From a virus, in the IMG/VR virus record IMGVR_UViG_3300022841_000027, positions 1 through 41,934 of that record: DNA of 41,934 nucleotides. One strand, given 5' to 3'. Made by a program: the position numbers and the translations under genes. Of this stretch, positions 3,419 through 38,766 are shown piece by piece; position 1 is the stretch's first letter; every line of letters starts with the position of its first letter. Under the pieces are notes generated by a model. That model was given only the letters and a program-made list of their open reading frames with translations, searched no databases and was not told the origin of the DNA.

Positions 3419-3430
3419 GGTGAATTCTCC

Positions 3431-4312: not shown

Positions 4313-4340
4313 GGTTAGTTATCCTTTAGTGTGTAGGTTG

Positions 4341-5345
4341 TTACATCAATACTTCTGCGTTACGTGAGGCCCACTCGATAAAGCTGCGGGTGCGGCGTAC
4401 ATCTGGTGTTTTACGAATCGCGTCCTTGGTACACATCACATCGAACTCACGCGGCAAGCGGGCTGTGTATTTAGTAACTCGGTCGAAGTTGTCCTTGGTG
4501 GCCTTGTTAGCCAGTGCACCAGTCAGGGCGAACAGCGTAGCTGGGTCAGTCGGAACTTCTGCTGTATCTGGCGACAACAATACAGAATCAACGTCTGGGA
4601 GCGAAGCGTATATCTTGCGGAACCCTGTGTACTCAGCGGCTGCGCCCTCACCTACCTCGCCAGCTACGTTGTCGTAGAACAAGTCTTTAGCCAGTGACTC
4701 AGGAATCAGGTTAACCCGCTCCCATGTACGAGGCGTGGGGTTGGCGAAGCGGTTGGCGTCGAAGTCAGACAACAGCCCGGGTCGGAAGCGTAGGAACTGA
4801 ATCAGTACTGGGTCAATGTCGTTATCCAGCGCCCACACTGTCCAGTCGTCGATGTTCTCCGAGAAGTCAAATCGTCGTGTACGCCCTGCCAGCTTGCTGG
4901 TTATCCGGTTGGCTCCTGACTTGTCCTCGGTGCGGTTACCTGTGGCGATGATGAACAGCTGGTCGGACAACTGCAAGTTACCAGCGCGGCGGTCGTAAAT
5001 CACACTGCACAGCGCGTTCTGCATGGGGACAGGCGCGTCAGATAATTCCTCCAGAATGAGTGCTGATTTTCCTACTCCACTGCGCAGGTTGTAGAACTCC
5101 TCGGGTGGCGTCCAGCGTGTGAACTCACCCTTGTTACTGGGCGTGCCCATTACGTCCACTGGGTCGCGCAGTGATGCGGTGAACTCTACTACTCGCTCCG
5201 GCGGTATGTCCAGCGAGGCGATTACTTCACGGGCGCAGGCTGACTTACCGCCGCCGGGCGCACCTAGGATAAACGGCACGACCACGTTACCGCGTGGGGC
5301 CTTGAACTGTTCGATGATGGATGTTTTGATGTTCTGATATTTCAT
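4341..5345 (-). CDS. MoxR-type AAA+ ATPase
   Basis: The 334-residue protein has a Walker A motif (GAPGGGKS, residues 28-35), a Walker B-like strand with two acidic residues (LILEE, about 96-100) and a sensor-1 region (ATGNRTED). These are followed by the arginine-rich KLAGRTRRFDF segment typical of MoxR/RavA-like ATPases. The length is near the family's usual ~300-350 residues. MoxR ATPases work with VWA-domain partners to remodel or insert cofactors into proteins, and a VWA/HEXXH protein lies in the same operon at 2309-3418. The start at 5345 has AAAGGA upstream. In a phage the target is unknown. Virion assembly, a host factor or replication are all possible. Confidence 0.9.
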   Translation of the reverse strand: MKYQNIKTSIIEQFKAPRGNVVVPFILGAPGGGKSACAREVIASLDIPPERVVEFTASLRDPVDVMGTPSNKGEFTRWTPPEEFYNLRSGVGKSALILEELSDAPVPMQNALCSVIYDRRAGNLQLSDQLFIIATGNRTEDKSGANRITSKLAGRTRRFDFSENIDDWTVWALDNDIDPVLIQFLRFRPGLLSDFDANRFANPTPRTWERVNLIPESLAKDLFYDNVAGEVGEGAAAEYTGFRKIYASLPDVDSVLLSPDTAEVPTDPATLFALTGALANKATKDNFDRVTKYTARLPREFDVMCTKDAIRKTPDVRRTRSFIEWASRNAEVLM

Positions 5346-18996: not shown

Positions 18997-20886
18997 ATGG
19001 CCACCATCGTTCTACGCAGCGGCAAGGGCTCGCCCCTTACCAACACAGAAGTCGACGCAAACTTTAGCAACCTGAACACGGGCAAGCTAGAGCTCGGCGG
19101 TACATATTCTAGCGGCACAGCCAACGGAGTCACCTACCTCAACGGCTCTAAGGTTCTCACCTCTGGGTCTGCGCTGACGTTTGATGGGACGAATTTGGGT
19201 GTTGGAGGCGCATCTACTGGCGCAAAAGTCTCCATTAAAAAAGGCGAAGCGGGGGCGATTCTTCGTTTGACTGACGGCTCCCAGCAAAGTATGGATATTT
19301 CATCCAATGCCGGTGCTGGTGGTGCTGGGGTTATTACAACTGACACGGTAAATTCAGGGGCACAGGCTTGGGCTATCAGCAACGCCGAACAAATGCGCCT
19401 AACCTCAACGGGGCTGGGGATTGGGACGAGTTCGCCTGCTTATAAGTTGGAGGTGCAAACAGGTGCTTTTGGCGCAGCGCTTTGGGCACAAACAGGCGGG
19501 ACAACAAGCAGCTATACTATTGCTGATTTTAGGACAGGTACTAACCTTTCAGCCCTCCAACTGTTTGGAGATGGTACATCAGTTTGGCGCGGTGGCGCTA
19601 TGCGCCTCGACTCCAGCGGGAATTTGCTGTTGGGGACTACGAGTACATTAGGTGCTAAGTTTGCTTTGTACGGTACACAAGGCGGCACAAACTCAAACAT
19701 TCAAATTACCAATCCGGGATACGGTACAGGGTGTATGGGTGTTAATGGAACAAGTTCAAACTTTAAAATCTACAACTGCTATTCAAACGGAACAATCGGG
19801 ACTGGCGTAGGTATTGATATTGATACCAGCGGCAACGTAGGGATTGGGACGAGTTCACCTACATACAAAGTAGACGCAACTGCCCCAAATTTGGGGAATA
19901 CGTCTGGTAACGAAGCGTACTTGTATCGTGGTACAACGTATACGGGCAACACTGACGCGTTCGAGGCGCTATACCAGCGCACAAGTAGCGTTAGCGGCTG
20001 GCCCAATGCGGATTTAATTTTAAGAAGGAACGTAGACTCGTCTGTTGGGCAGAGTCAGATTCGGTTTAATGGCAATAACTCTACTTCGTTTTGGACAAAT
20101 TCAGCCGAACGCATGCGCATCACCATCGCAGGCAACGTAGGGATTGGGACGACTTCCCCTACTGGTAAACTTGATGTGGTTGGCGGAAGAAGTTTCTTTG
20201 CTGCCAATAACGAAAATTATGCAGTGGGCGTTAGATACCACTCTAGTGGCGGCTCGATGTATTTTGGCGCAACAAGTGCTTCTAGTACGCCTGACGGTGG
20301 CATCTTTAATTCTGGTGGTTCCCAGATTATTTCATTTAATAATAACTTAAACGTAGGGATTGGGACGAGTTCGCCAGCAAAGAAGCTCGATATACGCGGG
20401 GCTAGTGATGGATTAGCAATACTTGTTCCATCCGATGACTTAAACGCGACTAACGATATATTCCAAATTACAAATGCTGCAGTTTCCAACGTATTTTTCA
20501 TAAGGAAAAACGGGAACGCCGTAAATACGAATAATAGTTACACTGGCATTTCTGACCTTAAACTCAAAGAGAATGTTGTTGACGTTTCGCCAAAATTGGC
20601 TGACCTACTCGATGTTCGCGTGGTTAGTTACAACCTAAAGCCTTCTCTTGGCTACGCTGGAGATAAACATATCGGGGTGGTTGCCCAAGAACTTGAAAAG
20701 ATATTCCCCGGCTTGATAGAGGAAAGTACAGACTACGAACAGCAAGGCGATGAAAGGGTTGACCTCGGGACTGTTACCAAATCGGTGAAGTACAGCATAT
20801 TTGTACCAATGCTCATCAAAGCCATCCAAGAACAACAAGCCCTTATCGCCTCACTAACCGCACGTCTTGACGCTGCAAATCTTTAA
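18997..20886 (+). CDS. Tail fibre with C-terminal S74 intramolecular chaperone
   Basis: The 629-residue protein has an N-terminal phage-fibre segment (RSGKGSPLTNTEVDANFSNL) and a shaft with repeats of the NVGIGTSSPxxKLDV type at about residues 141, 282, 382 and 454. The C-terminal peptidase S74 domain has the self-cleavage element SDLKLKEN at 519-526, then GVVAQELEKIFPGL and a final coiled coil (IKAIQEQQALIASLTARLDA). S74 domains assemble the trimeric fibre and then cut themselves off at the Ser. The protein is the likely host-receptor-binding fibre. The shaft repeats are near-identical at DNA level, which favours recombination. Confidence 0.92.
   Translation: MATIVLRSGKGSPLTNTEVDANFSNLNTGKLELGGTYSSGTANGVTYLNGSKVLTSGSALTFDGTNLGVGGASTGAKVSIKKGEAGAILRLTDGSQQSMDISSNAGAGGAGVITTDTVNSGAQAWAISNAEQMRLTSTGLGIGTSSPAYKLEVQTGAFGAALWAQTGGTTSSYTIADFRTGTNLSALQLFGDGTSVWRGGAMRLDSSGNLLLGTTSTLGAKFALYGTQGGTNSNIQITNPGYGTGCMGVNGTSSNFKIYNCYSNGTIGTGVGIDIDTSGNVGIGTSSPTYKVDATAPNLGNTSGNEAYLYRGTTYTGNTDAFEALYQRTSSVSGWPNADLILRRNVDSSVGQSQIRFNGNNSTSFWTNSAERMRITIAGNVGIGTTSPTGKLDVVGGRSFFAANNENYAVGVRYHSSGGSMYFGATSASSTPDGGIFNSGGSQIISFNNNLNVGIGTSSPAKKLDIRGASDGLAILVPSDDLNATNDIFQITNAAVSNVFFIRKNGNAVNTNNSYTGISDLKLKENVVDVSPKLADLLDVRVVSYNLKPSLGYAGDKHIGVVAQELEKIFPGLIEESTDYEQQGDERVDLGTVTKSVKYSIFVPMLIKAIQEQQALIASLTARLDAANL
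19417..20372 (+). repeat. Dispersed 17-bp repeat within the fibre gene
   Basis: The 17-mer gggattgggacgagttc occurs at 19417-19433, 19840-19856 and 20356-20372, and with one change (gacttc) at 20140-20156. The second and third copies share five more bases upstream (gcaac-gta). All encode GIGTSSP or GIGTTSP in the fibre shaft. The DNA identity exceeds what protein conservation requires. Confidence 0.85.
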
Positions 20887-23098: not shown

Positions 23099-24721
23099 AT
23101 GACTACGCTATCCATCAAAACATTCGGCGGAATAGCGCCAAAAACTCCAGCTCGCTACCTGCAAGAGAACCAAGCGCAAACGGCGCTAAACGCTCCTAGG
23201 TTTAATGGGTCTTTGCAGGCCATGTATGGGCTTAGCGCGTCGCTTACGACGCTGACAAAAGTAGGTACCCCGCTCACTATTTATCGGTTTGGGCAGGAAG
23301 CGCCATCAGACACAAACTACTGGTTTCACTGGACTACAGATGTCGATGTTTGCCGCAGCCAAATCGCAGGCGATACTAGCGAGTGGACTTTTTTTACTGG
23401 TGATGGAGTTCCTAAAGCCACTTACTCTACGATCGCACTGAGCGGGTCGGGGTATCCAACTGTGGCTAGACCATTAGGTGTTGCTGCTCCAGACTCAGCT
23501 GCCACAGCAGCTGAAGGGTCTACGACGGGGGTCGACACCGATGCCTTGCGAGAAACTCGCGTATACGCCTACACAAGCGTATCTAAGGAATCTGGTTTTG
23601 AGCGAGAGTCTGCGCCGTCCCCTGCCTCGAACTCGGTTGACGTATACCCCGGACAACCGGTGTCTGTTTCAAGCTTTAGTTCACTGCCGTCCGGGTACAA
23701 CATAACACACCGCAGAATTTACCGCTCTACATCAGGCACTTTTTTGTTTGTGGCTGAGATAGCCGCCGCGGCAGCGTCGTACTCAGACACATTGTTGGCA
23801 GAAGACTTGGGCGAGGAAATACTCAGTTTGACGTGGGCGGAGCCGCCCGAGACTTTGGCCGGGCTTACAAACTTACCAAATGGCATTGTGGCGGGCTTTA
23901 CAGGCCGAGACATATACTTTTGCGACCCGTACAGACCTTTTGCGTGGCCTGTGGAGTACAGCCAGACACTTGACTACCCTGTGGTTGGCCTTGGTAGGAT
24001 GGACACCACACTGGCGGTGCTCACAACAGGGACGCCGTACTTCATACAAGGCTCGCATCCCGACTCCATGGTCGCCGTTCAGGCCGACCTACAGCAAGCC
24101 TGTGAGTCCAAGCGCAGCATAGTTAGCATGGGGGGCTCCGTTTTTTACGCTAGCCCTGATGGTTTGGTTATGCTTTCTAGTAACGGCTCCAAGGTTGTCA
24201 CAGATGCTATGTTTACGCGCAAGCAGTGGCGCGAGCAGTTTTTGCCGTCGTCAATACACGCCTACCAACACGACATGAAGTATGTGGCGTTTTACGACAA
24301 CGGGTCTACGCAAGGTGGTTTTGTATTTGACTTACTTACGGGGCAGTTCGCGATGCACAGCGTTTACGCTACTGCTGGCTACTCCGACTTGGTAGTAGAT
24401 AAGTTGTTTTTAGCGTTTGCAGACCGGTCTATAAAGGCTTGGGGGTACGGCGCTGAGCTAGACTATGTGTGGAAGTCCAAGAAGATTTCGCTTCCAGCCC
24501 CCTCTACTATGGCGTGCGCGCAGGTAGAGGCAGAGTCGTACAGTGTTGTGGCTAAGTTTTATGCGGACGGCGTGCTTATTCACACACAGACGGTCGCCAG
24601 TCGTGTACCATTTAGACTGCCTGCCATTACCGCAAGAGACTGGGAAATTCAGCTAGAGGGCAACAAGGAGATTTTTTCCGTGGCAATTGCGCAATCTATG
24701 GTCGAACTAGCGAATGTCTAA
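23099..24721 (+). CDS. Tail structural protein, probable nozzle/tubular-B-like (540 aa)
   Basis: The 540-residue beta-rich protein (MTTLSIKTFGGIAPKTPARY, then LQENQAQTALNAPRFNGSLQ) belongs by pattern to a podoviral structural family that starts with an I-TFGGIAPK-PARYL element. The middle looks like a beta-propeller with repeated W/Y-rich blades (FCDPYRPFAWPVEYSQTLD, KYVAFYDNGSTQGGFVFDLL). In several podoviruses such proteins form the tail nozzle. A T7 gp12 equivalent is inferred, not shown. There is no obvious ribosome site. The start lies 9 nt after the endolysin stop. It overlaps the next gene by 8 nt. Confidence 0.75.
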   Translation: MTTLSIKTFGGIAPKTPARYLQENQAQTALNAPRFNGSLQAMYGLSASLTTLTKVGTPLTIYRFGQEAPSDTNYWFHWTTDVDVCRSQIAGDTSEWTFFTGDGVPKATYSTIALSGSGYPTVARPLGVAAPDSAATAAEGSTTGVDTDALRETRVYAYTSVSKESGFERESAPSPASNSVDVYPGQPVSVSSFSSLPSGYNITHRRIYRSTSGTFLFVAEIAAAAASYSDTLLAEDLGEEILSLTWAEPPETLAGLTNLPNGIVAGFTGRDIYFCDPYRPFAWPVEYSQTLDYPVVGLGRMDTTLAVLTTGTPYFIQGSHPDSMVAVQADLQQACESKRSIVSMGGSVFYASPDGLVMLSSNGSKVVTDAMFTRKQWREQFLPSSIHAYQHDMKYVAFYDNGSTQGGFVFDLLTGQFAMHSVYATAGYSDLVVDKLFLAFADRSIKAWGYGAELDYVWKSKKISLPAPSTMACAQVEAESYSVVAKFYADGVLIHTQTVASRVPFRLPAITARDWEIQLEGNKEIFSVAIAQSMVELANV

Positions 24722-27311
24722 CGCAAAACTACCGCACGTAAAATCCCAGATACCCCAAGACCTTCGGTTTTTTATAGACCGTTTGCGGGACGTACTGGGC
24801 GGCACGGGCTTCACTAAGCTTCTGACTGTAGGCGACCTAGTATCTTCGGGTTTAGCGTCAACAAACAGTGCAGGTTTTTTGTCTCCGGTAGCGATGTATT
24901 TAGCGACGCCGCCTGCACCAACTAACGTGGAAGCTTCCGCAGCTATACGGAACGTAATTGTAACTTGGGGTGCACCTGCTTACGCAGGGCACGCATACGC
25001 CGAAGTTTGGGGGGCTAGCACTAATACTTTTTCTAGCGCGGTTTTGTTGGGGCTATCCCCCGGTGCTATATACGTTGACGCGCTAGGCCCGTCAGCCACT
25101 CGGTACTACTGGGTCCGATTTGTAAACACCCAAGACACACCCGGGTCGTATAACGCTACGGAGGGTACTTCCGCTACAACTGGCGGCGATATCGCGTATA
25201 TACTCGGCGTATTGTCGGGCGCTATTACTGACAGCCAGTTGTCTACAGCCCTTAACAGCCGCATAGACTTAATTGACGGAGACTCCGCCACAGTTGGGAC
25301 AATTCCCTACTACTTAGCGCAGGTTCAGGGGCAGATAGACGCGATTAACTCGTACCCCGACTACGACGCCGCGGCAGCGTACGCAATAAACGACATTGTT
25401 AAGTATGACAGCGGACTGTATAAAGCCACCGCAGCTACGACGGGCAACTTGCCGACTAACACCAGCTACTGGGTAAAGATAGGCGATTACACATCAATTG
25501 CGGACGCGGTTGTAAGTATAGCTAGCGATGTTTCTCAACTGCTAACGGACTTGGGCGCTGAGGTTACTAGCCGGGAGACACTGGCGGCTCAGATGCGGGG
25601 TACCTACACCGGTACAGACATCACCAGTATTACGGCTGGCCTTTTGTTCTCTGAGCGAACAGCTCGGGCGACCGCAGATAGCTCTTTAGCTAGCCAGATC
25701 AGCACGGTTTCGGCTACGGCTAGCGGTAAGAACACAATATACAGGCAGACTACAGCGCCCACGTCCCCAGCGGTTAATGACATATGGGTAGACACGCGTG
25801 TTAGTTACGCAGAGACTTACTTTGACACAGACTTTTCAGTTCCTAAGTACAAGCAATACCAGTGGGATGGTAGCGCATGGCTAGATATTACCGACACAGA
25901 TGTCTCAGACAACTTTGCCATTGTTAGCCGCGAGCAGTTGGCCCGAGCCGACGCTAACTCCGCGCTTGCGCAGGACATCCTCACCCTAGGCGTCAGAGTA
26001 AATGGCGACATAGCTACCCTAAATGCGACTTTAGTAGAAGACTACTACACCGCAGCGGATACAAATAGCGCAATCTCTGCGTCCAGCACGTTTTTGCGCG
26101 CTTACGCCGACGTAGCCTCCAAAGTGTTTCGTCAAGCTAGCGCGCCTACAAACCGGGGTACAGACCCCGAGACTTCAGCAACCTTGCCGCTACGGCAAGG
26201 CGACGCGTGGGTAGACACTGATGATAGTAATAAGCTGTACTTGTGGAGCGGCACGGCTTGGGTGTATTCACCCGATGGCGTTATTCAAGGTGCTATAACC
26301 GCGGTAGACGCTAGAGTTACAAACGTAGAAACTGCTCAGATCGGATATTGCACGCTAGGCGGGGTAGCTACTGACTCTAGAAATAAGACAGCCTGTGAGG
26401 CCTCTGGTGGTACGTGGAACGTAGGCATTCCCTTTGCTTCTGCAGTTAAGCAAGTATCCATCTCAGACGGCGACGAGTCTATCGCCCTAGAGCAGCGCTT
26501 CACAGCGCAGCGCGGCGTGAACGAAGAGCTAGCGGCCTCTTACACAGTCAAGATTGACGACAACGGCTCTGTTTCCGGTATCGGCCTGTTTAGTGAGGCT
26601 GGCCAGTCTAAATTCATTGCCTCAGTAGATCAGTTCGGGGTTGAGGCTCCGCTGACATCAGTGCCTGTTCGCGCCAACTCTACTGCGTACACTGTTCATC
26701 AACTCGTCCGGTTATCTACCAACAACAGCAAAGTCCTTGTGTGTAAATCGTCTGGTACGACCGGCACGACTGCGCCATCACTAGGCGCGATTGGGACTAT
26801 GCTAGCGGACGGGTCTGCGCAGTGGCAGATTGCTAGCCGAGTACCTTTTGCTGTTCAGGCAACCCCCGCCAATATCAATAACGTGGTCGTACCTGCAGGG
26901 GTCTATGTAGACGCCGCGTATATAGTCAACGCCACCATTAACGGCGCGCAGATTGGCAACGCTGCAATAGACAACACCAAGATAGCAGATGTCAACGTCG
27001 GCAAACTAACCGCTGGGTCGCTGTCGACAGATACGTATATACGCTCATCTAACTATGTAGCGGGCACGCAGGGCTTTAATATTAACGCTGACGGCACGGC
27101 GGAATTTAGCAACGCGGTTGTTCGCGGCTCTGTGTACGCCACGACGGGGGTTTTTTCCGGAGATATTTCTGGTGCTAACGGTACTTTTTCAGGCGCGCTA
27201 GATGTAAAAAGCTCAGAGTCCGGGGAGCGCATGGAGATAACAAGCGCAAGCATAAAGGTTTTCGATAGCAGCGGCGTCCTTCGCGTAAAAATAGGAGACC
27301 TTTCATCGTGA
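24714..27311 (+). CDS. Tail tip / fibre protein with lambda J-like C-terminal region
   Basis: The 865-residue multi-domain protein begins with a short anchor, then a fibronectin-III-like domain at about 65-150 (PPAPTNVEASAAIRNVIVTW). Next come CBM5/12-like aromatic modules at about 215-255 (NDIVKYDSGLYKAT) and again near 660-700. Two copies of a GDxWVDT-x-LYLWSGTAW element and a long DUF1983-type C-terminus follow (DVNVGKLTAGSLSTDTYIRS, GTAEFSNAVVRGSVYATTGV). Lambda J-like tails of this kind carry receptor specificity. The modules with Tyr/Trp in NDIV-Y-SGLYKA layout suggest glycan binding. Confidence 0.82.
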   Translation: MSNAKLPHVKSQIPQDLRFFIDRLRDVLGGTGFTKLLTVGDLVSSGLASTNSAGFLSPVAMYLATPPAPTNVEASAAIRNVIVTWGAPAYAGHAYAEVWGASTNTFSSAVLLGLSPGAIYVDALGPSATRYYWVRFVNTQDTPGSYNATEGTSATTGGDIAYILGVLSGAITDSQLSTALNSRIDLIDGDSATVGTIPYYLAQVQGQIDAINSYPDYDAAAAYAINDIVKYDSGLYKATAATTGNLPTNTSYWVKIGDYTSIADAVVSIASDVSQLLTDLGAEVTSRETLAAQMRGTYTGTDITSITAGLLFSERTARATADSSLASQISTVSATASGKNTIYRQTTAPTSPAVNDIWVDTRVSYAETYFDTDFSVPKYKQYQWDGSAWLDITDTDVSDNFAIVSREQLARADANSALAQDILTLGVRVNGDIATLNATLVEDYYTAADTNSAISASSTFLRAYADVASKVFRQASAPTNRGTDPETSATLPLRQGDAWVDTDDSNKLYLWSGTAWVYSPDGVIQGAITAVDARVTNVETAQIGYCTLGGVATDSRNKTACEASGGTWNVGIPFASAVKQVSISDGDESIALEQRFTAQRGVNEELAASYTVKIDDNGSVSGIGLFSEAGQSKFIASVDQFGVEAPLTSVPVRANSTAYTVHQLVRLSTNNSKVLVCKSSGTTGTTAPSLGAIGTMLADGSAQWQIASRVPFAVQATPANINNVVVPAGVYVDAAYIVNATINGAQIGNAAIDNTKIADVNVGKLTAGSLSTDTYIRSSNYVAGTQGFNINADGTAEFSNAVVRGSVYATTGVFSGDISGANGTFSGALDVKSSESGERMEITSASIKVFDSSGVLRVKIGDLSS

Positions 27312-27595
27312 GTTACGGCTTTGATCTAGGCAGAATCCGTAGCGATAGCGTAGGCGTATCGTACATAGATGAGTTTACGCATACTGGGGAAACAACTACC
27401 AAGTTGTACTCATCACCCGTATTTGAATTTGTCACGCAAGTGCAGACTTTTATCGCTCCAGTGGAGGATATTAACGCAGATTTTATTGTAGAGTTTCCCG
27501 CTATAACTACGGCGTTTTCTAATGAAGCTAAGTCTATAAGCGTCGAAGTTTCAGGTGGCAATGTTGCGGCGTCAATTTTAGTTTTTGTGCGGTAG
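27308..27595 (+). CDS. Hypothetical tail-region protein, GTG start (95 aa)
   Basis: GTG at 27308 overlaps the upstream stop by 4 nt and has GGAG about 10 nt upstream. The 95-residue product is a beta-rich, weakly acidic protein (SYGFDLGRIRSDSVGVSYID onward, ending GGNVAASILVFVR). It probably belongs to the tail-tip complex with its neighbours. No family recognised. Confidence 0.68.
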   Translation: MSYGFDLGRIRSDSVGVSYIDEFTHTGETTTKLYSSPVFEFVTQVQTFIAPVEDINADFIVEFPAITTAFSNEAKSISVEVSGGNVAASILVFVR

Positions 27596-27597
27596 CC

Positions 27598-28677
27598 ATG
27601 ACTACTTTTGGTGCTATTTTTAGGGCTAGCGATGGCTCACTGCTTGTAACTTCTGAGACGCCATGCTACGAACTCGTAGCTACAAAAAATCCAAACTCTA
27701 GGGTAGGCAACGTAAGTACATATACATCCGACGTTGGTAGGTTTCCTTTAGTGTTTGTGAATTGCGGAGTCGGTAATTCTGCAGGTGTTCTGTCTGTAGT
27801 AGGAGAGCCGGGGGATTGGACGATTACCGTGCTGGCTACAAACAACTGCCCAATAAATATTTTTATCCCATTAACTGCGGCTTCTACTAGCGGTTATGGG
27901 GTTTCGGTGTTCGACTCTGCCGGTAATCCGGTCTTTGACTCCGCTAAAGATGTGCTTAACGCCCGCGTAATAGGACTATTGTCAGAAAGCGCCGCTAGTT
28001 TTTATTCTGCGTCTGGTACAGATATGGTTGCGTACACTAGCGGCCCAGTGTTCCCACAAAAAACGGACTCGGTTGCAACCGTATTGGTAGATGTTTTGCC
28101 TGTTGAAGGTTCTGAGTTCGTATGCTCGAACAACCTTGAATATGTTTGCGAAGACCAGTGGTTCTTCCGGTATGAGACGCGGTGCGGATACGAGGATGTT
28201 TGCACCTTTGTGGGCTTTCAAACTGTTTGTTCTACGCAGTATGTGTGTAGACAGGTTCCAGTGTATGGCTATGAGCAAGTTTGTACCTATCGGTATGTAC
28301 AGCGATGCATATATACCTATTATTTCGGCAATATTTATATCTACGCAACCATAAAAACAACTAGCTGGGAGGTTAGCAGAGGGGTAGCGCGAATAAACGC
28401 CGACGCATCCGTGTTTTTTGATTGGCTTTTACACGAGTCGGGAGTCTATAGAGACGTTTTGTCGTACGAGTCCGTTACCGTAATCTTCGGGTTTAGCCAC
28501 TGGGGCTCCACCGCAGCGGGCTTGCCCTTCGGCTTTACCCCGCCCGAGTCTTTTTTTATTGAGTTTTCTGGCTATGAAGGGCGGTTTACTTCGGAAAACA
28601 CCTTCCCATACACAACTGACCGCGCTAATATCGGGGTATTACCTTGTATAACAGCAGTAAGGAGCGACTATGAGTAA
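27598..28677 (+). CDS. Tail-region protein with mirror-symmetric eight-cysteine array (359 aa)
   Basis: The 359-residue protein lies 2 nt after the upstream gene. Residues 1-170 are beta-rich (GRFPLVFVNCGVGNSAGVLS). Residues 176-237 hold eight cysteines with spacings 7, 11, 5, 8, 5, 11, 7, most preceded by an aromatic- or acidic-x-x-C element (EYVC, YETRC, YEDVC, QYVC, YEQVC). After residue 240 the protein becomes beta-rich and aromatic again, with FFDWLLHESGVYRD and GFSHWGSTAAGLP. The Cys region may bind metal or form disulfides outside the cell. The protein is probably part of the tail tip, by its position between the J-like protein and the GNAT gene. Confidence 0.75.
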   Translation: MTTFGAIFRASDGSLLVTSETPCYELVATKNPNSRVGNVSTYTSDVGRFPLVFVNCGVGNSAGVLSVVGEPGDWTITVLATNNCPINIFIPLTAASTSGYGVSVFDSAGNPVFDSAKDVLNARVIGLLSESAASFYSASGTDMVAYTSGPVFPQKTDSVATVLVDVLPVEGSEFVCSNNLEYVCEDQWFFRYETRCGYEDVCTFVGFQTVCSTQYVCRQVPVYGYEQVCTYRYVQRCIYTYYFGNIYIYATIKTTSWEVSRGVARINADASVFFDWLLHESGVYRDVLSYESVTVIFGFSHWGSTAAGLPFGFTPPESFFIEFSGYEGRFTSENTFPYTTDRANIGVLPCITAVRSDYE

Positions 28678-28879
28678 ACCATTTAGATTTCACCCGGTTG
28701 ATGCTGGCCTTAGCACCCAGCGAATTTCGCTCACATTTGAGGGGGAAGCAGCTACCGAGTTTCCAGCTGCGGACTTATCACTGCCGGAAGACCAAACTGC
28801 TCGTTTTTGGGCGGTCTACAACTTTTTGGTGTCTGCGCAGGCTATACCAAACGATACACCGGTCTATACTGGTGGTTAG
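28670..28879 (+). CDS. Small tail-region protein (69 aa)
   Basis: The 69-residue protein (MSKPFRFHPVDAGLSTQRIS onward) overlaps the Cys-array gene by 8 nt and has AAGGAGCGACT before its ATG. It has a beta-rich N-terminal half and an aromatic helix (TARFWAVYNFLVSAQAI). The position suggests a small structural or chaperone partner of the preceding protein. Confidence 0.68.
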   Translation: MSKPFRFHPVDAGLSTQRISLTFEGEAATEFPAADLSLPEDQTARFWAVYNFLVSAQAIPNDTPVYTGG

Positions 28880-28897
28880 CTGTAAGCGGCGAAGCTC

Positions 28898-29314
28898 ATG
28901 GCAGACCTAGTGTTCGATCAAAAAGAGCGCGTAGGCGCTTGGGTGGCAGCTAAGGTCGGGCAGAAGGCTGACTGGGGTAGCTTCTACGCTATGGGCGTGG
29001 AGTCAGGCGGCAATATCATCGCGGGGGTTGTGTTTAACAACTTTAACGGGTCTAATGCTACCTGCCACATAGCCATATCTAAATATACGAAGGCTATTAT
29101 CCCGCTGTTTGAGGCTGTCTGTGACTACGCGTTTAACCGATGCAAACTAAAGCGCCTGACCGGCATGGTTCCATCTAATGAACCCGCTGTACTGGCGTTT
29201 GACAAGCACCTCGGCTTTGAAGAAGAGTTTATAATGAAGCACGGCGCACCAGACGCCGATATGCACGTTCTTGTGATGTGGCCAGACAAATGTCGCTGGC
29301 TACGTAAGGAGTAA
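28898..29314 (+). CDS. GNAT-type acetyltransferase-like protein (138 aa)
   Basis: The 138-residue protein follows a GNAT pattern: a strand with GGNIIAGVVFNNFNGSNATC, then a helix region with CDYAFNRCKLKRLTGMVPSN and a later AVLAFDKHLGFEEEF element that resembles the usual GNAT C-terminal strand-helix (N-x-A-x-x-xx-x-x-GF). Its place between tail and internal virion genes matches acetyltransferase-like genes seen in other T7-like podoviruses. The acetyl-CoA-binding P-loop is not clean, so it could be a structural GNAT-fold protein. The substrate is unknown. Confidence 0.78.
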   Translation: MADLVFDQKERVGAWVAAKVGQKADWGSFYAMGVESGGNIIAGVVFNNFNGSNATCHIAISKYTKAIIPLFEAVCDYAFNRCKLKRLTGMVPSNEPAVLAFDKHLGFEEEFIMKHGAPDADMHVLVMWPDKCRWLRKE

Positions 29315-29317
29315 ATT

Positions 29318-30265
29318 ATGGGTGGTAAATCTAGTCCTCCGCCTCCAGATTATAGCGGTATGGAGAGGGTTGCTAACAGGCAACTAGACTTCTCCGAACG
29401 CCAGTATGAAGAGATGAAGCCAACACTTACGGGGCTGGCGAACACTATGCGTGACGCGCAAGAGCAGCAGATGACTCAGGCGCAGGATTACTTTCAGTAT
29501 CAGCAGGATACATTCCGGCCACTGGAGCGAGGGCTCGTAGCGGACGCGGAGAATTTTAGTACTGCGGGGTACCGAGAGGGCTTGGCACGCGACGCATCTG
29601 CCGCCGCCGGACGCGCATTTAGTAACACCGAGGCGTCCAACTCTAGGTCTTTAGCCTCCATGGGTATTAACCCCAACTCCGGACGTGCTCTGGCTATGAG
29701 AAACGCCAGTAATTTGGGTTTGTCGGCACAACGCGCAGGCGCTATGACGAGCGCCCGAACACAAGCCGAAGGCATGGGTTTTGCCCGCCGCGTGGACGCT
29801 GCCGGGCTTGGTCGAAACTTAGCCACAAACTCTACTGCTGCGTATCAGGGCGCAACGCAGGCCGGTACTTCCGCTGGAAACATGTACCAAGCGCCGGGCA
29901 ATCAATACCAAGCAGGGCTTTCTAACGCAGGAAGCACATACGGAAATATGGCTAATACGCAGGCTGGCGTATACAACGCCGGTATGAACGCTAGTGGTGA
30001 ATTCTACGGGGCATTAATTGGCGCTGGCGCAACTGCGTACGCGTCTGACGCCCGCCTCAAGAAGAACATAACTCAGGTTGGCCTGTACGAGTCTCTTGGT
30101 TTACCTATGTATGAATTCGAGTACATAGGCGGTGACGGCAGGGTGTTCCGAGGTGTTATGGCTCAGGACGTAGAGATTAAATACCCAGATGCGGTAATTA
30201 CTAAAGATGACGGATATAAGGCTGTCAACTACTCAATGCTAGGCATAGAAATGATGGAGGTCTAA
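29318..30265 (+). CDS. Virion protein with a second S74 self-cleaving domain (315 aa)
   Basis: The 315-residue protein begins MGGKSSPPPPDYSGMERVAN, then a long Gln/Glu/Ala-rich helical body with a Gly/Asn/Ala/Thr-rich stretch (AYQGATQAGTSAGNMYQAPG). From residue about 240 there is a short S74-type domain with the cleavage element SDARLKKN at 243-250 and GVMAQDVEIKYPDAV, ending NYSMLGIEMMEV. The N-terminal part resembles phage internal/ejection-like virion proteins rather than a fibre shaft. A chaperone-peptidase domain in that context is unusual. It precedes two more internal virion genes. The ribosome site is AAGGAG. Confidence 0.82.
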   Translation: MGGKSSPPPPDYSGMERVANRQLDFSERQYEEMKPTLTGLANTMRDAQEQQMTQAQDYFQYQQDTFRPLERGLVADAENFSTAGYREGLARDASAAAGRAFSNTEASNSRSLASMGINPNSGRALAMRNASNLGLSAQRAGAMTSARTQAEGMGFARRVDAAGLGRNLATNSTAAYQGATQAGTSAGNMYQAPGNQYQAGLSNAGSTYGNMANTQAGVYNAGMNASGEFYGALIGAGATAYASDARLKKNITQVGLYESLGLPMYEFEYIGGDGRVFRGVMAQDVEIKYPDAVITKDDGYKAVNYSMLGIEMMEV

Positions 30266-31674: not shown

Positions 31675-34600
31675 ATGGCAAATATTGATCGCTTACGACA
31701 GGCTTTTCCCAACTTAAAAAACGCTGACGACGCCACGGTGATAGGAGAAGCTGCTAGGCTCAGTGGGGCTTCCTACTCTCAGGTTGCGGAAATGCTAGGC
31801 GTGGCCCCTGAAGGAGGCTTGGCCGGTTTTGGTAGGCAGTTTATGGGCGGTCTTACTGTAGATGCCCCCGAGCAAGTAGGCAAAGCCTTCCTAGACTTGC
31901 AGTCCCGCGCAAAGGGAGTTGCGGACACTATTGGAATTGACCGGTTTTTCCCGTCTGCCTATAGTGATGCGGAGTCAGCCGCTACAACGGCTAGAGGGCT
32001 AGTAGACTCCGCCCAAAAGCGCCAGTCTAGATTTGAGCCAGATACTAGAGATCAAGGTGTCGTGTCGGAAGTACTCGGTATGGGTGCTAGAGGCTTGGGC
32101 GCGGCGCTGCCATCCCTAGTTACTACTATTGCTAACCCCTACCTTGGGGGGGCCCTAGCGTTTGGGCAGTATGGCGGGTCTTCTTCCTTTGACACACGTA
32201 AAAAAGTACTGGAGGCTGGCGGTACGCAAGAAGAAGCAGACCTTGCGGCCACTAAAGTTTTTGGTATTCAGGGCGGTCTTGAGGCCGCTACTAACGTAGT
32301 TACTGCTGGTTTAGCTAGACCAGTCAAAGACCTCAGCGTAGGTCTTGCAAAGTCTCTCGGGGTAACTGGGCAAGCCGTGACAACTAAGGGCGTAGCAAAA
32401 GCGCTAGCCAACCCAACCGCGTGGAAAGACGCCGGTAAGGCGTACGTTAAGTCTGTTGCGCTAAACACAATTACTGAGCCAACTCAGGATTTACTCACTC
32501 GCGCCGTTGAAGTAGACGCTGGCGTAACCCCGGATTCTTCGGCGTTAGAAACCGCCATTGAGTCCGCCAAAGGTGGCTTTGGCATGGGTGTTTTGTTAGG
32601 CCCGCTGTTCGTTGGCCAAGCCAAGTCCCGTACAAACCGCGCTAAAACTTTTAAAAATGCACTGGAAAATCCGGATGCTCCGCCAGAAGCTAAGGCCTTG
32701 GCTCAGGATATGGTTATGTCCGCCGCTCGGGAGCAGGGTGTAGCGGATGCTGACGTAGGTTCTTGGTTTAACGAACAGTTAACTGCCGAAGATGCGCGCA
32801 ATGATGCGCTGTCTGAGTTGGAAAAGTACGCTAATTTGAGTAAAACTTATGGCAGCGAAAGCGCCATGGGTAGGGCTGAGGGTGTGTCTCTAGAACAGCA
32901 AATCAACCAGCTAGTTGCGGCTGCTAGACTTGAGGAAATGGGTGTCCCGGCAGGAGAAACCGAAGTAGGTCTGTCAGAAGCAAGCAAAAAAACTAAGGCA
33001 AAATCATACGCGGCTCAGTTTGAGGAAGCTTTTGCTGAACCCAGCGGGCAGTTTGCCAATGACCCCGCGACCGGTGTCGAGCGCGAACTCAGCGTTGGTG
33101 AAGCCATGCTTATGCAAGCTGGCGTACCTTTCTCGCCCCCTAGCACAGAGACAGAAGCTAAGCCTAACGCCGCCAAGCAAATTCTTACGCCAGCGCAGCA
33201 GCGCCTGATTGACGCCGGAGTAAACCCATACCAGCGTGGTGCATCCAAGAAAGCTACCGACGTACTAGACAAGATTTCAGCTAGTGGCTTGCCGGAGGAT
33301 GTTACTGCGCCAGTTCTTACGCTGCTGCAGGATTCTAAGTTCAAAGCCGCCGACGCCATGCTTACAAAGCTGTACGCAGAGGCGGAATTAGCAAAGGTAC
33401 GGAATGTCAGCCAAACAACTACCCCTGTCTCTGGAGCTGCAGGATTGCTACCTACTGGGGGCGTTGACGTTCTCGGAGGCGTGGGAGCTGCAGGACTTGC
33501 TCCTGCTGGAGTCGGACAATCTGGAGCTGACCTCGGAACAGTACCCACAGCTGGAGAAGCTAATGTTGTATCAACTGTGCCCCGTAAACGAGCTCCCACT
33601 GTAGCGCCTACCGTTTCTTCTACTACCCCTACTGTTGCTGTAGCACCTACTAACACTGCGGCTCCATTTGAAGCCGACACAGTAGACGAGAACACCCTAG
33701 AAATTGCCCGTATGACAGGCCAAGAGGGGTTAGCCAACGTCGTTGCTCAAGAGCAGGAGGGTAGCCGTGCAGATGAAGTGGAGCTGGACGAAGCCGCAGT
33801 ACAAGCTGTAATTGAGGCTAGGCTTGCGTCTTCGCAGAATAAAGACCGTGATCGCGCCATTATTAACGAGTACCTTGCGGTGCTTCGCGCTCCTAATTCT
33901 GTGGGTAAGGCGGCGCTAAAAGAGGCAATAGCCAGTAAATATGGAATAAAAGACAAGGATTTGGCCAAGATAGGCAATCCCACTGAATTGGTAAAAGCTG
34001 CTGGCGCTATGGGTTTTAGTGCGGAGCAAGCGCGCTTAGCATTTAACGTGCGAGACACTACCAAGGCTGCAGCCGGAGCTGACGCTACGACGACCAGCCA
34101 ATTAAAAGAGCGCCTGAAGAAAGTAAACGCAAAGATTACTAAGGCTACTGCAGTAGGGGCTACAACTACTCCTGAAGTTAGATTAGAGCTACAAAACCAA
34201 AGAATCTCCCTAGAAAGCGAAATCGCTGACGCTACTAAGGCGCAGGGTGCGAATATGAGTGCTGAGCTAGCTACGGCTGGTTTTACTGCCGACGAGAAGG
34301 GCAACGGTGGTTTTGGTATGGACGACAGTCGCTACTGGGCTGAACTAGAAGATGACGCTACGCCAGCCACTCAGATTATTGCGCTTGCTGATAAGTTGGA
34401 TGCCTTAGAAAATGCCTTGGCAGAGTTTGAGGCCCTAGGTAATGCAGAAGCTGTAGCCCAAATACGCGGTGAGCTAGATAAAGCACAAACTGCCCTAGAC
34501 GCTAAGATGGCGCAAGTCAACGCGCAGGCGCTCGCTGCCAAAAAAGGAAAACCGACGGATGCTAAAGCAGCGACACCAAAGGTAGTAACTAGGAAACAAG

Positions 34601-37600
34601 TTACGGCCCCCAAGAAAGGAGCGCAAATAATTGACTTGGCCGCTAAGCTAAAAGAAAAAGCTGACGCCGCCGAAGACTTGGCTGGCTTTGATGAGCTGGC
34701 TAAGGCTGTAGCTGCAGAAAATATCTCTGCGGTGAGGGAAGCGGCCGCTAAGCTGCGCGGTCTAAGCATGCTCATGGAGCGTGCGGATAAATCTTTGGAG
34801 TCCGCAGCTAGAGACCCCCAAGGTCGAGTTGCTGGCCTAAGCATTGCTGTTCAGTTAGATAGCTACTTGCGGGAGTACATAGCTATTTCTGAAGACGCCG
34901 ACGCGGCGTTAGCCGGGGAGCGAGAGGGTGCCGATTTGGTAGCCAGAGCAGAGGCTATCTCCAACGAAGAAGCCCTTTCTGATATTAGAGAGCTATCGTC
35001 CCTCATGGAGGATGTCAATAAACAACGGGCGGAGATGGCTAACTTCGTGGAGACGCCATTTATGGCGGCGGAGCGCGCGTGGGACGCTGAAGTACAGACG
35101 TACGATAGCGGCCCTCTGTTTGAAAACTTGACTAGAGACCAACAACAAGACTTTATTGAGTTTGGTGAGGCTAACTGGGGCCCTGCAGACGTAACGTTAA
35201 TGCTGGCGAAAATCCAAAACACGACAATACCGGTAGCTAACGACGCAGATATGCGTAAAGTGCAGGTAGGAGAGCGTGTAGGCATTACGGCGGATGACAT
35301 TAGTTTCAGTGGTGTGCGGACTACGCCAGAGCTCCTTCGCCGCTACCCCGGAATTGATCGCTCGCTATCTGCATTTGAGAAAGACGGTATGTCTCACCTC
35401 ATGGACGCAGTAGACTACTGGCTTGTGGTGGACAACTCTGTAGACTTCGACGCGGCTGTATTCCCCTTGGACGGTAAGCGAGTCTTGGCGTTCCGTCTCG
35501 GCGTGCTGGGTGTAGAGAACAGCGCGTTCTTATCCGCCAACCATGAGATAGGCCACGTAGCCGACAACGTATACGACGACGCCGGTGTTTACTCTGGCGT
35601 AGCTCAGCTAAACGTGCGCATAGTTGAGGGCAAAGCCCGTGGCATGGGGGCCGTAGCTAGAGACATCATTACTGCCGTAGAAAACAACACCAGTGCTGCG
35701 CTAACTGCGCACTTCGCTTACCCGCTGGGCAGCAACATTACAAAAACAGACCGCATGCGTGAAGAGCTATTTGCTCAACTGTGGGCTGCGCGTTCCGACC
35801 CAGTACTCCGCGAAGAGCTAGCTAATACAATGCCATTCGCATTTGATTTTATAGAGGATGTATATGAAGCAGAGAAATCAAAAGCTAGTAGACCAGCTAG
35901 CACAGCGAGCGCTACAGCAGCGCCTGAAGCAACAACGCAACCCAAAGCCAATCAAAGCGATATTCGAGCCCCGAGGAACGTTCCTGCGGGAAGCATCCGA
36001 CGCAAAGCCAGAACAACCAAGCGCAACATAGACAAACTACCAAAAGCGCTACAAGACCCGGTAAGGAATTCTGTTGACGCGCTTATGGATTTCGGAAACA
36101 AAACGCTCGATACCCTAGGTTTTACTAGCGACCTAATCGAGCGCGCTGTGAAAGCCGGTGTTGGTTCCGCAGAGCTTATTGGCCGGCACCTCAAAGACAC
36201 CAAGACACGTACGGGCGAACTCACCTCCAACATTAACAAAATTTTGGAGATGTACTTAGACCTTCCAGAAGTAGACCGAGGCACTGGTACGCGCAGCGTT
36301 AACCGCTTTTTGTTTGACTCTACTAGAGAAGGCAAGTGGGGCTACGGAAAATTTGCTGACCCAGAGATGGCAGCTAGGTTCGCACTACTGTCCCCGGAAA
36401 GTCAGGCATTTGTTAAGGCTGTGTTTGCTCATGGCGACAAGATGCTGGCGCTAAAAAAGAAAACTGTGCTTGACGCCACCCAGACTTCATATGACGGTCG
36501 TATTGCCGACGCTGTAGCCGCTGGAAACACCACCAAAGCGGCTAGTCTTACAAGAGACAAAGCTGCCGCTCTCAAAAAGTACGAGTCGCTGTTTAAGATA
36601 AGCGAAGGCAAGCCGTACGCTCCTATAAAGCGTGCAGGTAACTACGTGGTAGTGGCCAAGTCAAAGGCTTACATTGCCGCCGAAAACGCAGAGGTTAAAG
36701 ACGCTAAGGCGATAGCGCAACTGGAATCTAGTGGAGACCACTACCACGTAACCTTTACCGACAGCAAAGGCGAGGCTCGCGCACTCCAGCGTCAACTAGA
36801 TGAGCAGGGTTCGTTCGACACCATAAACATTGGTGCGCTAGACCAGCAGGTCGACAACCTCTACAACAACACTAGTTCGCTGAAGGAGCTTCTCAAGCTG
36901 AAAGAAGCAGCTAGGGACTTAGACGATGTAGACGCAAAGGCGGCGGGCAAACTATCCGGCGTTATTGCGGACTTGTACTTGAACGCTTTGGCCGACGGCG
37001 GCGCTCGCAAATCTGAGATGCGCCGCAAGGGTGTTGACGGCGAGGTAGACATGGTTCGCTCCTTTGCTTCGCAGGGAATGGCGGATGCGTCCTTTATAGC
37101 TAATGCGGAGTTTGGCCCTAAAGTCCAAGCGGCGCTACGACGCGCCAAGACTGAGTCTACTAGCGGCGGGGACACCCTGCGCAAAACTGAGCTGCGCAAC
37201 GAACTGGTTCGCCGCTACCTGCAGACTATGGACTACACATCTAATCCGTGGATAAGCAAGCTGCTCAGGATGTCGTCAATTCACTACTTGGCAACTAGCC
37301 CTGCCTACTACCTCCAAAACGGTACCCAGCCATGGCTAATGTCTCAGCCACTAATGGCGGGTAGACATGGGTACTTCAAGTCTGCAAAGGCGCTTTCAGA
37401 CGCGTACGGAGAACTTGGGGAGATGATAAAAAGCGCTAGCGTGTTTACTCAGCAGTTTGACTTTGACAAAGTACCAGCTGATGTCCGTCCTGCCATTAAA
37501 GAACTGGCCAACCGGGATATGATCGACTTGGGTATTGACTCCGAAATGGGCGAGTTCCGAGTTGGTGGCGAGGGTAAAGTAGCCGAGAAATGGAACGCCG

Positions 37601-38766
37601 TGGATAAGGGCTTGCGCCTGATGGTGCAAAAAGTTGAGGCCATAAACCGCGTGTCTACTGCTGCTGCTTCGTACAGGTTGGAGTTTGCAAAAAGCGGAGA
37701 CGTAGCGCAGTCCTTGAAGTACGCAGAAAAAATCCTGCAGGACAGCCACGGGGATTACTCTTCGTTTAACGCGCCGCGTGTCTTCAACACCAACTTTGGG
37801 CGGATAGCTCTGCAATTCCGAAAGTTTCAGCTTATACAGATGGGCTACTACGCGAAGCTGCTCGACAACTCTTTTCGCGGGGACGATAAAATTGCTGCGA
37901 GACAAGCCCTTGGGTATTCTCTGGCCCACACTGCCGCGTTAGCCGGTGTAAAAGGCGTTCCGCTGTTCACCACTATAGCTTGGGCGATAGGTGCTTTGTT
38001 TGGGGACGATGACGATGAGACCCCCACCGAGTCTAAAGTGCGCAACGCACTCGTAAGCAACTTTGGGGAGACCGTAGCCGACTTGATTATGTACGGCACT
38101 CCTACGCTTGTTGGCGCAGACATCTCCGGCAAAGTGGGAGCTGGTAACGTACTGTCTCTAATGCCTTATAGTCGCGCTGACCTGACGACTACATCCGGCC
38201 AAGCTCAGGCGGTCGGGGAGTTTTTCTTGGGTGCTTCTGGCGGCATGACCGTGAAGATTGCTGACGGTGTCGGCTTGATGGCGCAGGGTGATTGGTACAA
38301 GGGTGTTGAGCAGACAATGCCCAAGGGTATCGCCGACATGTTGAAAGCCGGTCGCTTTGCTTTCTCAGGCCTAACTAGGCGCAACGGCGATATAACCATG
38401 TCTGCCGAAGAAGTAAGCGCTTTGGACACTTTGTGGAAATCCATAGGTATCTCGCCAGTTAAACAGTCTGTTATGTATCAGAAACAGCAAGCCCTGCGCG
38501 ACATGGAGAAGAGCTTGAACTCTGAGTCGTCTCGCATCAAGTCTGACTACGCTAAAGCGGCCCGCGAAAAAGACAAAGGTGGTATGGCAGAAGCTAGGGA
38601 AGAGTGGAAGAAGTTGCAGGACAAGCGCGACACAAATGGTTTCCGTAGGCAAGCAATCTCCGGACTCTTACGCGCCCCTCTGAGGCAGGTTGATCGTGAG
38701 CGTCGAACTGTGGGCGGCGTACAATTTAACAAGAGTAACCAGCGCGCAGCTGAATCGCTACTGTAA
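31675..38766 (+). CDS. Giant polyvalent internal virion protein with metallopeptidase and LPD38-like C-terminus (2363 aa)
   Basis: The protein is one uninterrupted 2,363-residue frame. The N-terminal 330 residues include a hydrophobic Gly-rich segment (ALPSLVTTIANPYLGGALAF), possibly membrane-active. Residues about 577-667 are a low-complexity Pro/Thr/Val/Ala linker. A zinc-peptidase motif HEIGH is at 1290-1294 (in SANHEIGHVADN). A second Ala/Ser/Thr linker is at about 1401-1455. The region about 1820-2100, with SSIHYLATSPAYYLQNGTQP and AHTAALAGVKGVPLF, resembles the large-polyvalent-protein domain LPD38. The end is basic (SGLLRAPLRQVDRERRTVGG). Polyvalent proteins are packaged with the DNA and ejected into the host. 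The peptidase may open the envelope or cleave host proteins after entry. Start ATG 31675 with AAAAAGG upstream. Confidence 0.9.
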   Translation: MANIDRLRQAFPNLKNADDATVIGEAARLSGASYSQVAEMLGVAPEGGLAGFGRQFMGGLTVDAPEQVGKAFLDLQSRAKGVADTIGIDRFFPSAYSDAESAATTARGLVDSAQKRQSRFEPDTRDQGVVSEVLGMGARGLGAALPSLVTTIANPYLGGALAFGQYGGSSSFDTRKKVLEAGGTQEEADLAATKVFGIQGGLEAATNVVTAGLARPVKDLSVGLAKSLGVTGQAVTTKGVAKALANPTAWKDAGKAYVKSVALNTITEPTQDLLTRAVEVDAGVTPDSSALETAIESAKGGFGMGVLLGPLFVGQAKSRTNRAKTFKNALENPDAPPEAKALAQDMVMSAAREQGVADADVGSWFNEQLTAEDARNDALSELEKYANLSKTYGSESAMGRAEGVSLEQQINQLVAAARLEEMGVPAGETEVGLSEASKKTKAKSYAAQFEEAFAEPSGQFANDPATGVERELSVGEAMLMQAGVPFSPPSTETEAKPNAAKQILTPAQQRLIDAGVNPYQRGASKKATDVLDKISASGLPEDVTAPVLTLLQDSKFKAADAMLTKLYAEAELAKVRNVSQTTTPVSGAAGLLPTGGVDVLGGVGAAGLAPAGVGQSGADLGTVPTAGEANVVSTVPRKRAPTVAPTVSSTTPTVAVAPTNTAAPFEADTVDENTLEIARMTGQEGLANVVAQEQEGSRADEVELDEAAVQAVIEARLASSQNKDRDRAIINEYLAVLRAPNSVGKAALKEAIASKYGIKDKDLAKIGNPTELVKAAGAMGFSAEQARLAFNVRDTTKAAAGADATTTSQLKERLKKVNAKITKATAVGATTTPEVRLELQNQRISLESEIADATKAQGANMSAELATAGFTADEKGNGGFGMDDSRYWAELEDDATPATQIIALADKLDALENALAEFEALGNAEAVAQIRGELDKAQTALDAKMAQVNAQALAAKKGKPTDAKAATPKVVTRKQVTAPKKGAQIIDLAAKLKEKADAAEDLAGFDELAKAVAAENISAVREAAAKLRGLSMLMERADKSLESAARDPQGRVAGLSIAVQLDSYLREYIAISEDADAALAGEREGADLVARAEAISNEEALSDIRELSSLMEDVNKQRAEMANFVETPFMAAERAWDAEVQTYDSGPLFENLTRDQQQDFIEFGEANWGPADVTLMLAKIQNTTIPVANDADMRKVQVGERVGITADDISFSGVRTTPELLRRYPGIDRSLSAFEKDGMSHLMDAVDYWLVVDNSVDFDAAVFPLDGKRVLAFRLGVLGVENSAFLSANHEIGHVADNVYDDAGVYSGVAQLNVRIVEGKARGMGAVARDIITAVENNTSAALTAHFAYPLGSNITKTDRMREELFAQLWAARSDPVLREELANTMPFAFDFIEDVYEAEKSKASRPASTASATAAPEATTQPKANQSDIRAPRNVPAGSIRRKARTTKRNIDKLPKALQDPVRNSVDALMDFGNKTLDTLGFTSDLIERAVKAGVGSAELIGRHLKDTKTRTGELTSNINKILEMYLDLPEVDRGTGTRSVNRFLFDSTREGKWGYGKFADPEMAARFALLSPESQAFVKAVFAHGDKMLALKKKTVLDATQTSYDGRIADAVAAGNTTKAASLTRDKAAALKKYESLFKISEGKPYAPIKRAGNYVVVAKSKAYIAAENAEVKDAKAIAQLESSGDHYHVTFTDSKGEARALQRQLDEQGSFDTINIGALDQQVDNLYNNTSSLKELLKLKEAARDLDDVDAKAAGKLSGVIADLYLNALADGGARKSEMRRKGVDGEVDMVRSFASQGMADASFIANAEFGPKVQAALRRAKTESTSGGDTLRKTELRNELVRRYLQTMDYTSNPWISKLLRMSSIHYLATSPAYYLQNGTQPWLMSQPLMAGRHGYFKSAKALSDAYGELGEMIKSASVFTQQFDFDKVPADVRPAIKELANRDMIDLGIDSEMGEFRVGGEGKVAEKWNAVDKGLRLMVQKVEAINRVSTAAASYRLEFAKSGDVAQSLKYAEKILQDSHGDYSSFNAPRVFNTNFGRIALQFRKFQLIQMGYYAKLLDNSFRGDDKIAARQALGYSLAHTAALAGVKGVPLFTTIAWAIGALFGDDDDETPTESKVRNALVSNFGETVADLIMYGTPTLVGADISGKVGAGNVLSLMPYSRADLTTTSGQAQAVGEFFLGASGGMTVKIADGVGLMAQGDWYKGVEQTMPKGIADMLKAGRFAFSGLTRRNGDITMSAEEVSALDTLWKSIGISPVKQSVMYQKQQALRDMEKSLNSESSRIKSDYAKAAREKDKGGMAEAREEWKKLQDKRDTNGFRRQAISGLLRAPLRQVDRERRTVGGVQFNKSNQRAAESLL

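Follow-up and report, generated by a model that had tools for sequence, protein, structure and literature searches.

A gene in the tail operon of the viral contig IMGVR_UViG_3300022841_000027 encodes eight cysteines whose spacing is mirrored about its centre, and the best reading of this array is that it probably forms a disulfide-stapled beta-hairpin stalk in a tail-tip adhesin. Our analysis covered the whole contig of 41,934 nucleotides, referred to here as the window.

Genomic setting of the array gene

The array gene, for which the coordinates, frame and residue numbers of the original prediction are right, is the second gene after that of the central tail fibre and precedes the gene of a GNAT-like acyltransferase (start at 28898). 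The features of this region are as follows.

24714..27311, plus strand: 865-aa central tail fibre with a Phage_Tail_Tip domain (PF09327, E = 1.3e-12; tail fibre matches phrog_37064, phrog_19394 and phrog_496)
27308..27595, plus strand: 95-aa cassette protein (VSYGFDLGR..), an ORF syntenic with L258 and PP9W2
27598..28677, plus strand: ORF with the cysteine array, 359 aa, 12 cysteines in all
27598..27891, plus strand: N-terminal module, aa 1-98 (FGAIF..DGSLLVTS..), from the phrog_3370 match and likeness to PP9W2 ULG00139.1
27892..28110, plus strand: start of the second module, aa 99-171 (GYGVSVFDSAGNPVFDS..), from a profile match to the A3 family
28111..28320, plus strand: predicted long beta-hairpin, aa 172-241 (AlphaFold2, single sequence)
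28123..28308, plus strand: mirror-symmetric eight-cysteine array, aa 176-237 (pairs 176:237, 184:229, 196:217 and 202:211)
28321..28674, plus strand: C-terminal part, aa 242-359 (..YPYTT.RAN.G.L.CIT.V.SDY), kept in L258 by alignment with the window protein
28898..29314, plus strand: GNAT-like acyltransferase, far border of the variable slot (phrog_4470, E = 1.5e-29)

The ORF is a conserved coding gene, with a 45% identical protein of 330 aa on the independent viral contig L258/L410, where the gene order (tail fibre, 95-aa, array, GNAT-like, 345-aa, 455-aa and 2473-aa proteins) is that of the window's neighbours. In L258, too, the 95-aa gene immediately precedes the array gene, and it is in place in Pseudomonas phage PP9W2. 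Further upstream, the gene at 23099-24721 has a match to phrog_511 (E = 3e-153), and its product is 31-36% identical to virion proteins of podoviruses such as Burkholderia phage BcepIL02, Erwinia phage PEp14 and related Stx phages, to which the structural cassette of the window is related.

In environmental relatives, the slot between tail fibre and acyltransferase holds different proteins, several with the motif MS[FYH]G....G...D and none with such an array. Across relatives L124-L204, different small genes fill the slot that spans 24714-29314 in the window, and in L177, L203 and L204 it holds an unrelated-looking protein of 581-586 aa with a Cys-containing insertion of its own. Genes of the A3 family (L234, L272, L273 and L275, described below) lie downstream of J-type tail-fibre genes: in L272 and L275, one or more short genes separate the array gene from that of an upstream phrog_31 protein, and in L234 it comes after the gene of a phrog_5616 tail-fibre protein, for which phrog_31 is a match as well. 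Wherever the flanking sequence is long enough, the array gene is located in the tail-tip region and comes after tail-fibre or J-type genes.

Within the array protein, matches to phrog_3370 (E = 1.4e-7, aa 3-121) and phrog_425 (E = 3.4e-5), together spanning aa 1-127, identify the N-terminal module; PHROGs matches stop at about aa 121-134 and leave the array outside, and a blastp alignment to ULG00139.1 of PP9W2 (27% identity) covers aa 3-177 and then ends. The protein so reads as a known kind of tail-operon module carrying an extra, long Cys-rich insertion. Neither Pfam nor NCBIfam gave a match to the array protein, and a PDB sequence search gave none to the array itself and nothing useful; the original label of candidate new domain suits the array in this respect, and suits less well the first ~120 residues, which match known, unnamed phage families.

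The stapled hairpin might belong to something other than an adhesin and either serve as a structural strut or act on the infected cell, as in superinfection exclusion. We consider this unlikely: the gene sits in the tail operon beside the central tail fibre, in a hypervariable slot, and the N-terminus of the protein (MTTFGAIFRASDGSLL) shows by eye no obvious signal or lipoprotein sequence, although its phrog_425 relatives are filed as moron or membrane associated proteins. The exclusion lipoprotein Rtp45, whose long hairpin reaches into LptD (PMC12685063), offers a precedent for such a role.

Several other features of the window were observed. In the tail fibre, at about aa 545-575, the motif YCTLGGVATDSRNKTACEASGGTWN holds 2/3 of the protein's cysteines and looks like a small disulfide-closed loop. 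An ejection-type protein at 29318-30265 has a C-terminal Peptidase_S74 (endosialidase chaperone) domain, to which the end of a 629-aa protein at 18997-20886 is similar by eye, and a 2363-aa DarB-like protein at 31675-38766 is devoid of cysteine, unlike the Cys-rich array protein nearby. On the minus strand (2309-5345), an AAA ATPase-like gene (4341-5345) adjoins, again by eye, a VWA/metallopeptidase-like gene (2309-3418), the two resembling a MoxR/VWA pair inside a phage.

The array is predicted to form one long hairpin

Recomputed from the translated ORF, the gaps between the cysteines at positions 176, 184, 196, 202, 211, 217, 229 and 237 are 7-11-5-8-5-11-7, the exact palindrome originally reported. 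Under random placement of eight cysteines in the same span, a mirror arises with P = 8.1e-5 and a mirror with same-parity arms with P = 9.1e-6, and P is ~0.01 when the observed gaps are put in random order; these values describe a single array picked after being seen, so the other mirrored arrays described below are the stronger evidence. Position -3 is E or Q for seven of the eight cysteines and position -1 is V or R for every one of them, a pattern better written [E/Q]-x-[V/R]-C than as the aromatic- or acidic-x-x-C first proposed. This motif runs in the N-to-C direction on both arms, and the mirror is one of spacing only, not of residues. Tandem duplication was rejected as the origin of the symmetry, since it would yield 7-11-5 repeated in the same direction rather than reversed.

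The geometry of the array is that of paired strands. Opposite cysteines keep one register (i+j = 413 in 4/4 pairs), same-arm distances are even (8, 12 and 6), and the central distance is odd (9). Side chains alternate along a beta-strand, such that evenly spaced cysteines of one arm share one face; given even arm distances and a single register, the cysteines of both arms would therefore face each other in an antiparallel hairpin. Cross-strand disulfides fit the non-hydrogen-bonded sites of antiparallel strands, by established protein geometry, and all four pairs fall on such sites when counted from the two-residue turn G206-F207. The Cys face also carries 13 of the 14 aromatics in the arms.

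Run on the single sequence of the window protein, AlphaFold2 predicted strands at 172-205 and 208-241 with the turn (206-207) at the mirror centre, and with mean pLDDT of 88-90 over aa 190-220 against about 25 elsewhere, only the hairpin region being confident. L275, with a different and irregular array, was picked for a second run as a test. Its mirrored cysteines sum to 191, placing the mirror centre at 95.5, and the model has strands at 60-94 and 97-129 around a turn at 95-96 (pLDDT 79-92 in the confident block). Both runs were single-sequence, and the alternating Y/C/V could favour strands trivially, though without explaining the turn positions. Register, parity, turn position, AlphaFold2 and the compensated spacing of homologs (below) agree, as they should for a cystine ladder, and strongly support the nested disulfide ladder of a beta-hairpin that was one of two readings offered originally: one long antiparallel hairpin is well supported, and the array would be closed by four cross-strand disulfides.

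The other original reading, two metal sites, is disfavoured. Along the strand, neighbouring rungs are separated by 6 residues (about 20 angstrom) or more, which makes a four-Cys site within one hairpin impossible, and a four-Cys zinc or Fe-S site in one chain was likewise rejected on same-arm distances of 6-12 along the predicted strand and the lack of any CxxC; one-chain metal sites are thus ruled out by distance, provided that the hairpin is right. A version that spans chains, in which the hairpin is real and its cysteines are reduced or bind metal, with each rung of a trimeric spike offering six cysteines that could hold a metal as histidines do in other phage spikes and tips, strikes us as quite improbable. 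Metal or Fe-S sites are known in phage tail tips, as in the P2 spike with its iron and lambda gpL with its cluster, tail-tip proteins are often trimers, and synthesis in the cytoplasm keeps cysteines reduced; the array, however, has no His pairs, its Cys face is shared with aromatics, and the model is of a single chain only.

Searches of both models with Foldseek gave no significant match, as expected where most of each model is of low confidence. The closest PDB shapes were stems of beta-barrel pore-forming proteins, and the two faces of the hairpin differ strongly (aromatic/Cys vs. V/E/Q/R), which could suggest a membrane-inserting stem, with the amphipathic hairpins of several copies forming an outer-membrane beta-barrel at genome ejection. 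We regard this as very improbable, as the best hit (E = 0.26, TM about 0.1) is not significant, any long hairpin would resemble such stems, and the face opposite the cysteines has many E, Q and R besides V. Disulfide rungs every 6-12 residues are, to our knowledge, no feature of pore-forming stems.

Related arrays change their spacing and stay mirrored

The IMG/VR scan for the exact spacing, as the original prediction had proposed, returned >120 hits, and all those inspected were low-complexity TGY-rich DNA. We searched IMG/VR and bacterial genomes at the DNA level for repeats of [acid/amide]-x-V-C, with no mirror required. Arrays were found in long phage ORFs of tail-operon type, and all are mirrored about a central loop: 7-7-5-7-7 in L258, the syntenic homolog of the window protein; 5-5-5-5-10-5-5-5-5 in L234 and, among prophages, in its relatives L364 and L411, and again in L272/L277 at about 35% identity; 5-5-12-5-5 in L273; and 5-5-7-5-8-5-7-5-5 in L275. 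In L234, L272 and L275, additional outermost unpaired cysteines stand outside the mirror and break the symmetry; most of these were left out of the gap-order test, in which the product of probabilities over five different spacings was ~3e-6, for arrays with outer cysteines thus trimmed and, being related at the domain level, only partly independent of each other.

Other properties of the window hairpin recur in these arrays. Over six arrays pooled, the Cys face holds 51 of the 55 arm aromatics and the opposite face 4, and the residues at the mirror centres (GF, GG, NG and SSG) suit tight turns, as do the four-residue central loops FSLG and VVTG, with G at the fourth position; in L234 and L272, the rungs reach non-hydrogen-bonded sites only if a four-residue loop is assumed. 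Profile-profile comparison matched the window/L258 alignment (query 101-316) to the A3 family with a probability of 97.5% and E = 8.5e-12, a score to which the arrays themselves add, and blastp aligned residues 102-234 of the window protein with 10-127 of L234 (E = 1e-9). By these sequence comparisons, the second module of the window protein appears to be the same kind of module as a whole A3 family protein.

Variable spacing and missing cysteines among homologs, which had been named as evidence against the array, did occur, yet Cys pairs were lost or moved symmetrically on both arms, and this variation supports the hairpin because each new spacing is again mirrored. Compared with the window, L258 keeps the outer C-x7-C on both arms and is shorter in the distal part of both. 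Between L234 and L411, flanks are 88% identical and the array 57%, with all cysteines and gaps the same; pN is 0.272 in the array vs. 0.071 in the flanks (3.8 times) at similar pS (0.455 vs. 0.422), and pN/pS stays below 1 and so does not demonstrate positive selection. Changes concentrate around the centre (13/18 within 10 residues vs. 13/32 elsewhere, P = 0.04). A stapled stalk with a variable end would be expected to evolve in this way. In this pair of phage/prophage proteins (L411, reverse strand; L234, 10331-11179), the array is a candidate hypervariable host-range region.

That the mirror is a coincidence, in ordinary low-complexity or repeat sequence that is rich in cysteine and belongs to a tail-operon protein absent from the virion, is scarcely credible when further distinct arrays with other spacings are also mirrored, turns fall at the mirror centres in two models and cysteines are strictly kept while their neighbours change, even though the exact spacing is otherwise found only in low-complexity DNA, bacteria have uniform C-x5-C repeats (e.g., L331) and one PHROG relative is the moron or membrane associated protein noted above.

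Further searches delimit the distribution of these arrays. With the array protein as query, viral contigs, genome contigs and plasmids yielded no array relative, and its N-terminal module alone was found, in Pseudomonas phages and plasmids. Searching annotated phages by tblastn with the array half, L234, L258, L272 and L275 gave nothing convincing; one candidate, H53, was rejected as antisense to its annotated gene. The window/L258 alignment recovered only L258's contig again among viral contigs and nothing in 369 genomes of one class. Among the hits of a genome pattern scan, a single one, L364 on a contig of a Pseudorhodobacter genome, was a genuine prophage array; the other long-ORF hits, rejected, were mostly uniform tandem repeats or Cys-rich repeats of myxobacteria. 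Separately, the 651-aa ORF of L331 (Bacillales MAG, reverse strand) is not a phage array: it repeats C-x5-C uniformly over a long stretch, as CQGGxVC, and its aromatics are on the same side as the cysteines. The A3 alignment found L364 alone, with short matches containing stops, in 385 genomes of its class, and L411 in addition to L364 in 397 genomes of the family.

A probable stapled stalk at the tail tip

Taken together, we propose that the hairpin, with about 34 residues per strand and a length of roughly 11 nm, would be an insertion in an accessory protein of the tail tip that is rich in beta structure, and that its eight cysteines would pair across the strands on one face, with all four pairs at non-hydrogen-bonded positions. 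Aromatics line the same face, and the resulting stalk would be rigid and display a variable loop at its tip. Most likely, the protein would be a virion adhesin at or next to the central tail fibre, a placement suggested by gene position, and the tip of its stalk may meet the host surface and contact a receptor. Phage proteins are made in a reducing cytoplasm, which counts against disulfides; the cysteines would presumably oxidise to a ladder after lysis, once the virion is outside. Disulfides do form in the virions of tailed phages, as in the Milano tail (PMC10811340) and the T1 tail tube (PMC11945409).

More broadly, there is about an even chance that the arrays represent an undescribed class of tail-tip adhesin in podoviruses, siphoviruses and prophages, with a hypervariable tip on a disulfide-laddered hairpin (3-5 rungs, up to ~11 nm) and with arm length set by symmetric gain and loss of rungs. 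Spacing that changes yet stays mirrored amounts to a readable hairpin-register code, in which pairing is legible from sequence alone. The ladder, if true, would be a new way for phages to make a long, stiff tail-tip probe, a scaffold on which residues between the fixed rungs can change quickly, and possibly a supply of long stapled hairpins for use in protein design, and it bears on how phage proteins made in the reducing cytoplasm gain disulfides.

Comparison with known systems

A literature search, with few subscription papers and preprints in its scope, found no long ladder hairpin described for a phage protein. A ladder-like loop is known from an algal fusion protein, and smaller ladders from the theta-defensins (cyclic cystine ladder) and disulfide-cyclised beta-hairpin antimicrobial peptides (PMC6327110, PMC13001179). 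The array would share with theta-defensins antiparallel strands and parallel cross-strand disulfides, and hence a mirrored Cys spacing. Theta-defensins, however, are cyclic peptides of 18 residues with closely spaced cysteines, whereas the array is a linear insertion of about 70 residues in a 359-aa ORF, with gaps of x5, x7 and x11 and, across the arrays, 3-5 rungs 6-12 residues apart.

Among phage proteins, the phrog_3370/phrog_425 family (PP9W2 ULG00139.1) has the same N-terminal module in the same place, after the tail-tip gene and the 95-aa gene, but the likeness does not extend over the whole protein, as the members examined have 228 aa and, unlike the window protein, no array. Tentaclins, among other diversified receptor-binding proteins of phages (PMC10743442), likewise expose a variable beta-hairpin at their surface; tentaclins are built from C-type lectin and Ig domains, neither of which Pfam detected in the array protein, are varied by diversity-generating retroelements and have no Cys ladder described. 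The extracellular tail disulfides of Milano and T1 are mostly between subunits, while those proposed here would lie within one hairpin. As an analogy only, the bovine ultralong CDR-H3 (PMC8602281) also combines a long stalk, a variable end, a beta-sandwich domain and disulfides, the latter being in the knob, whereas those of the array would be in the stalk.
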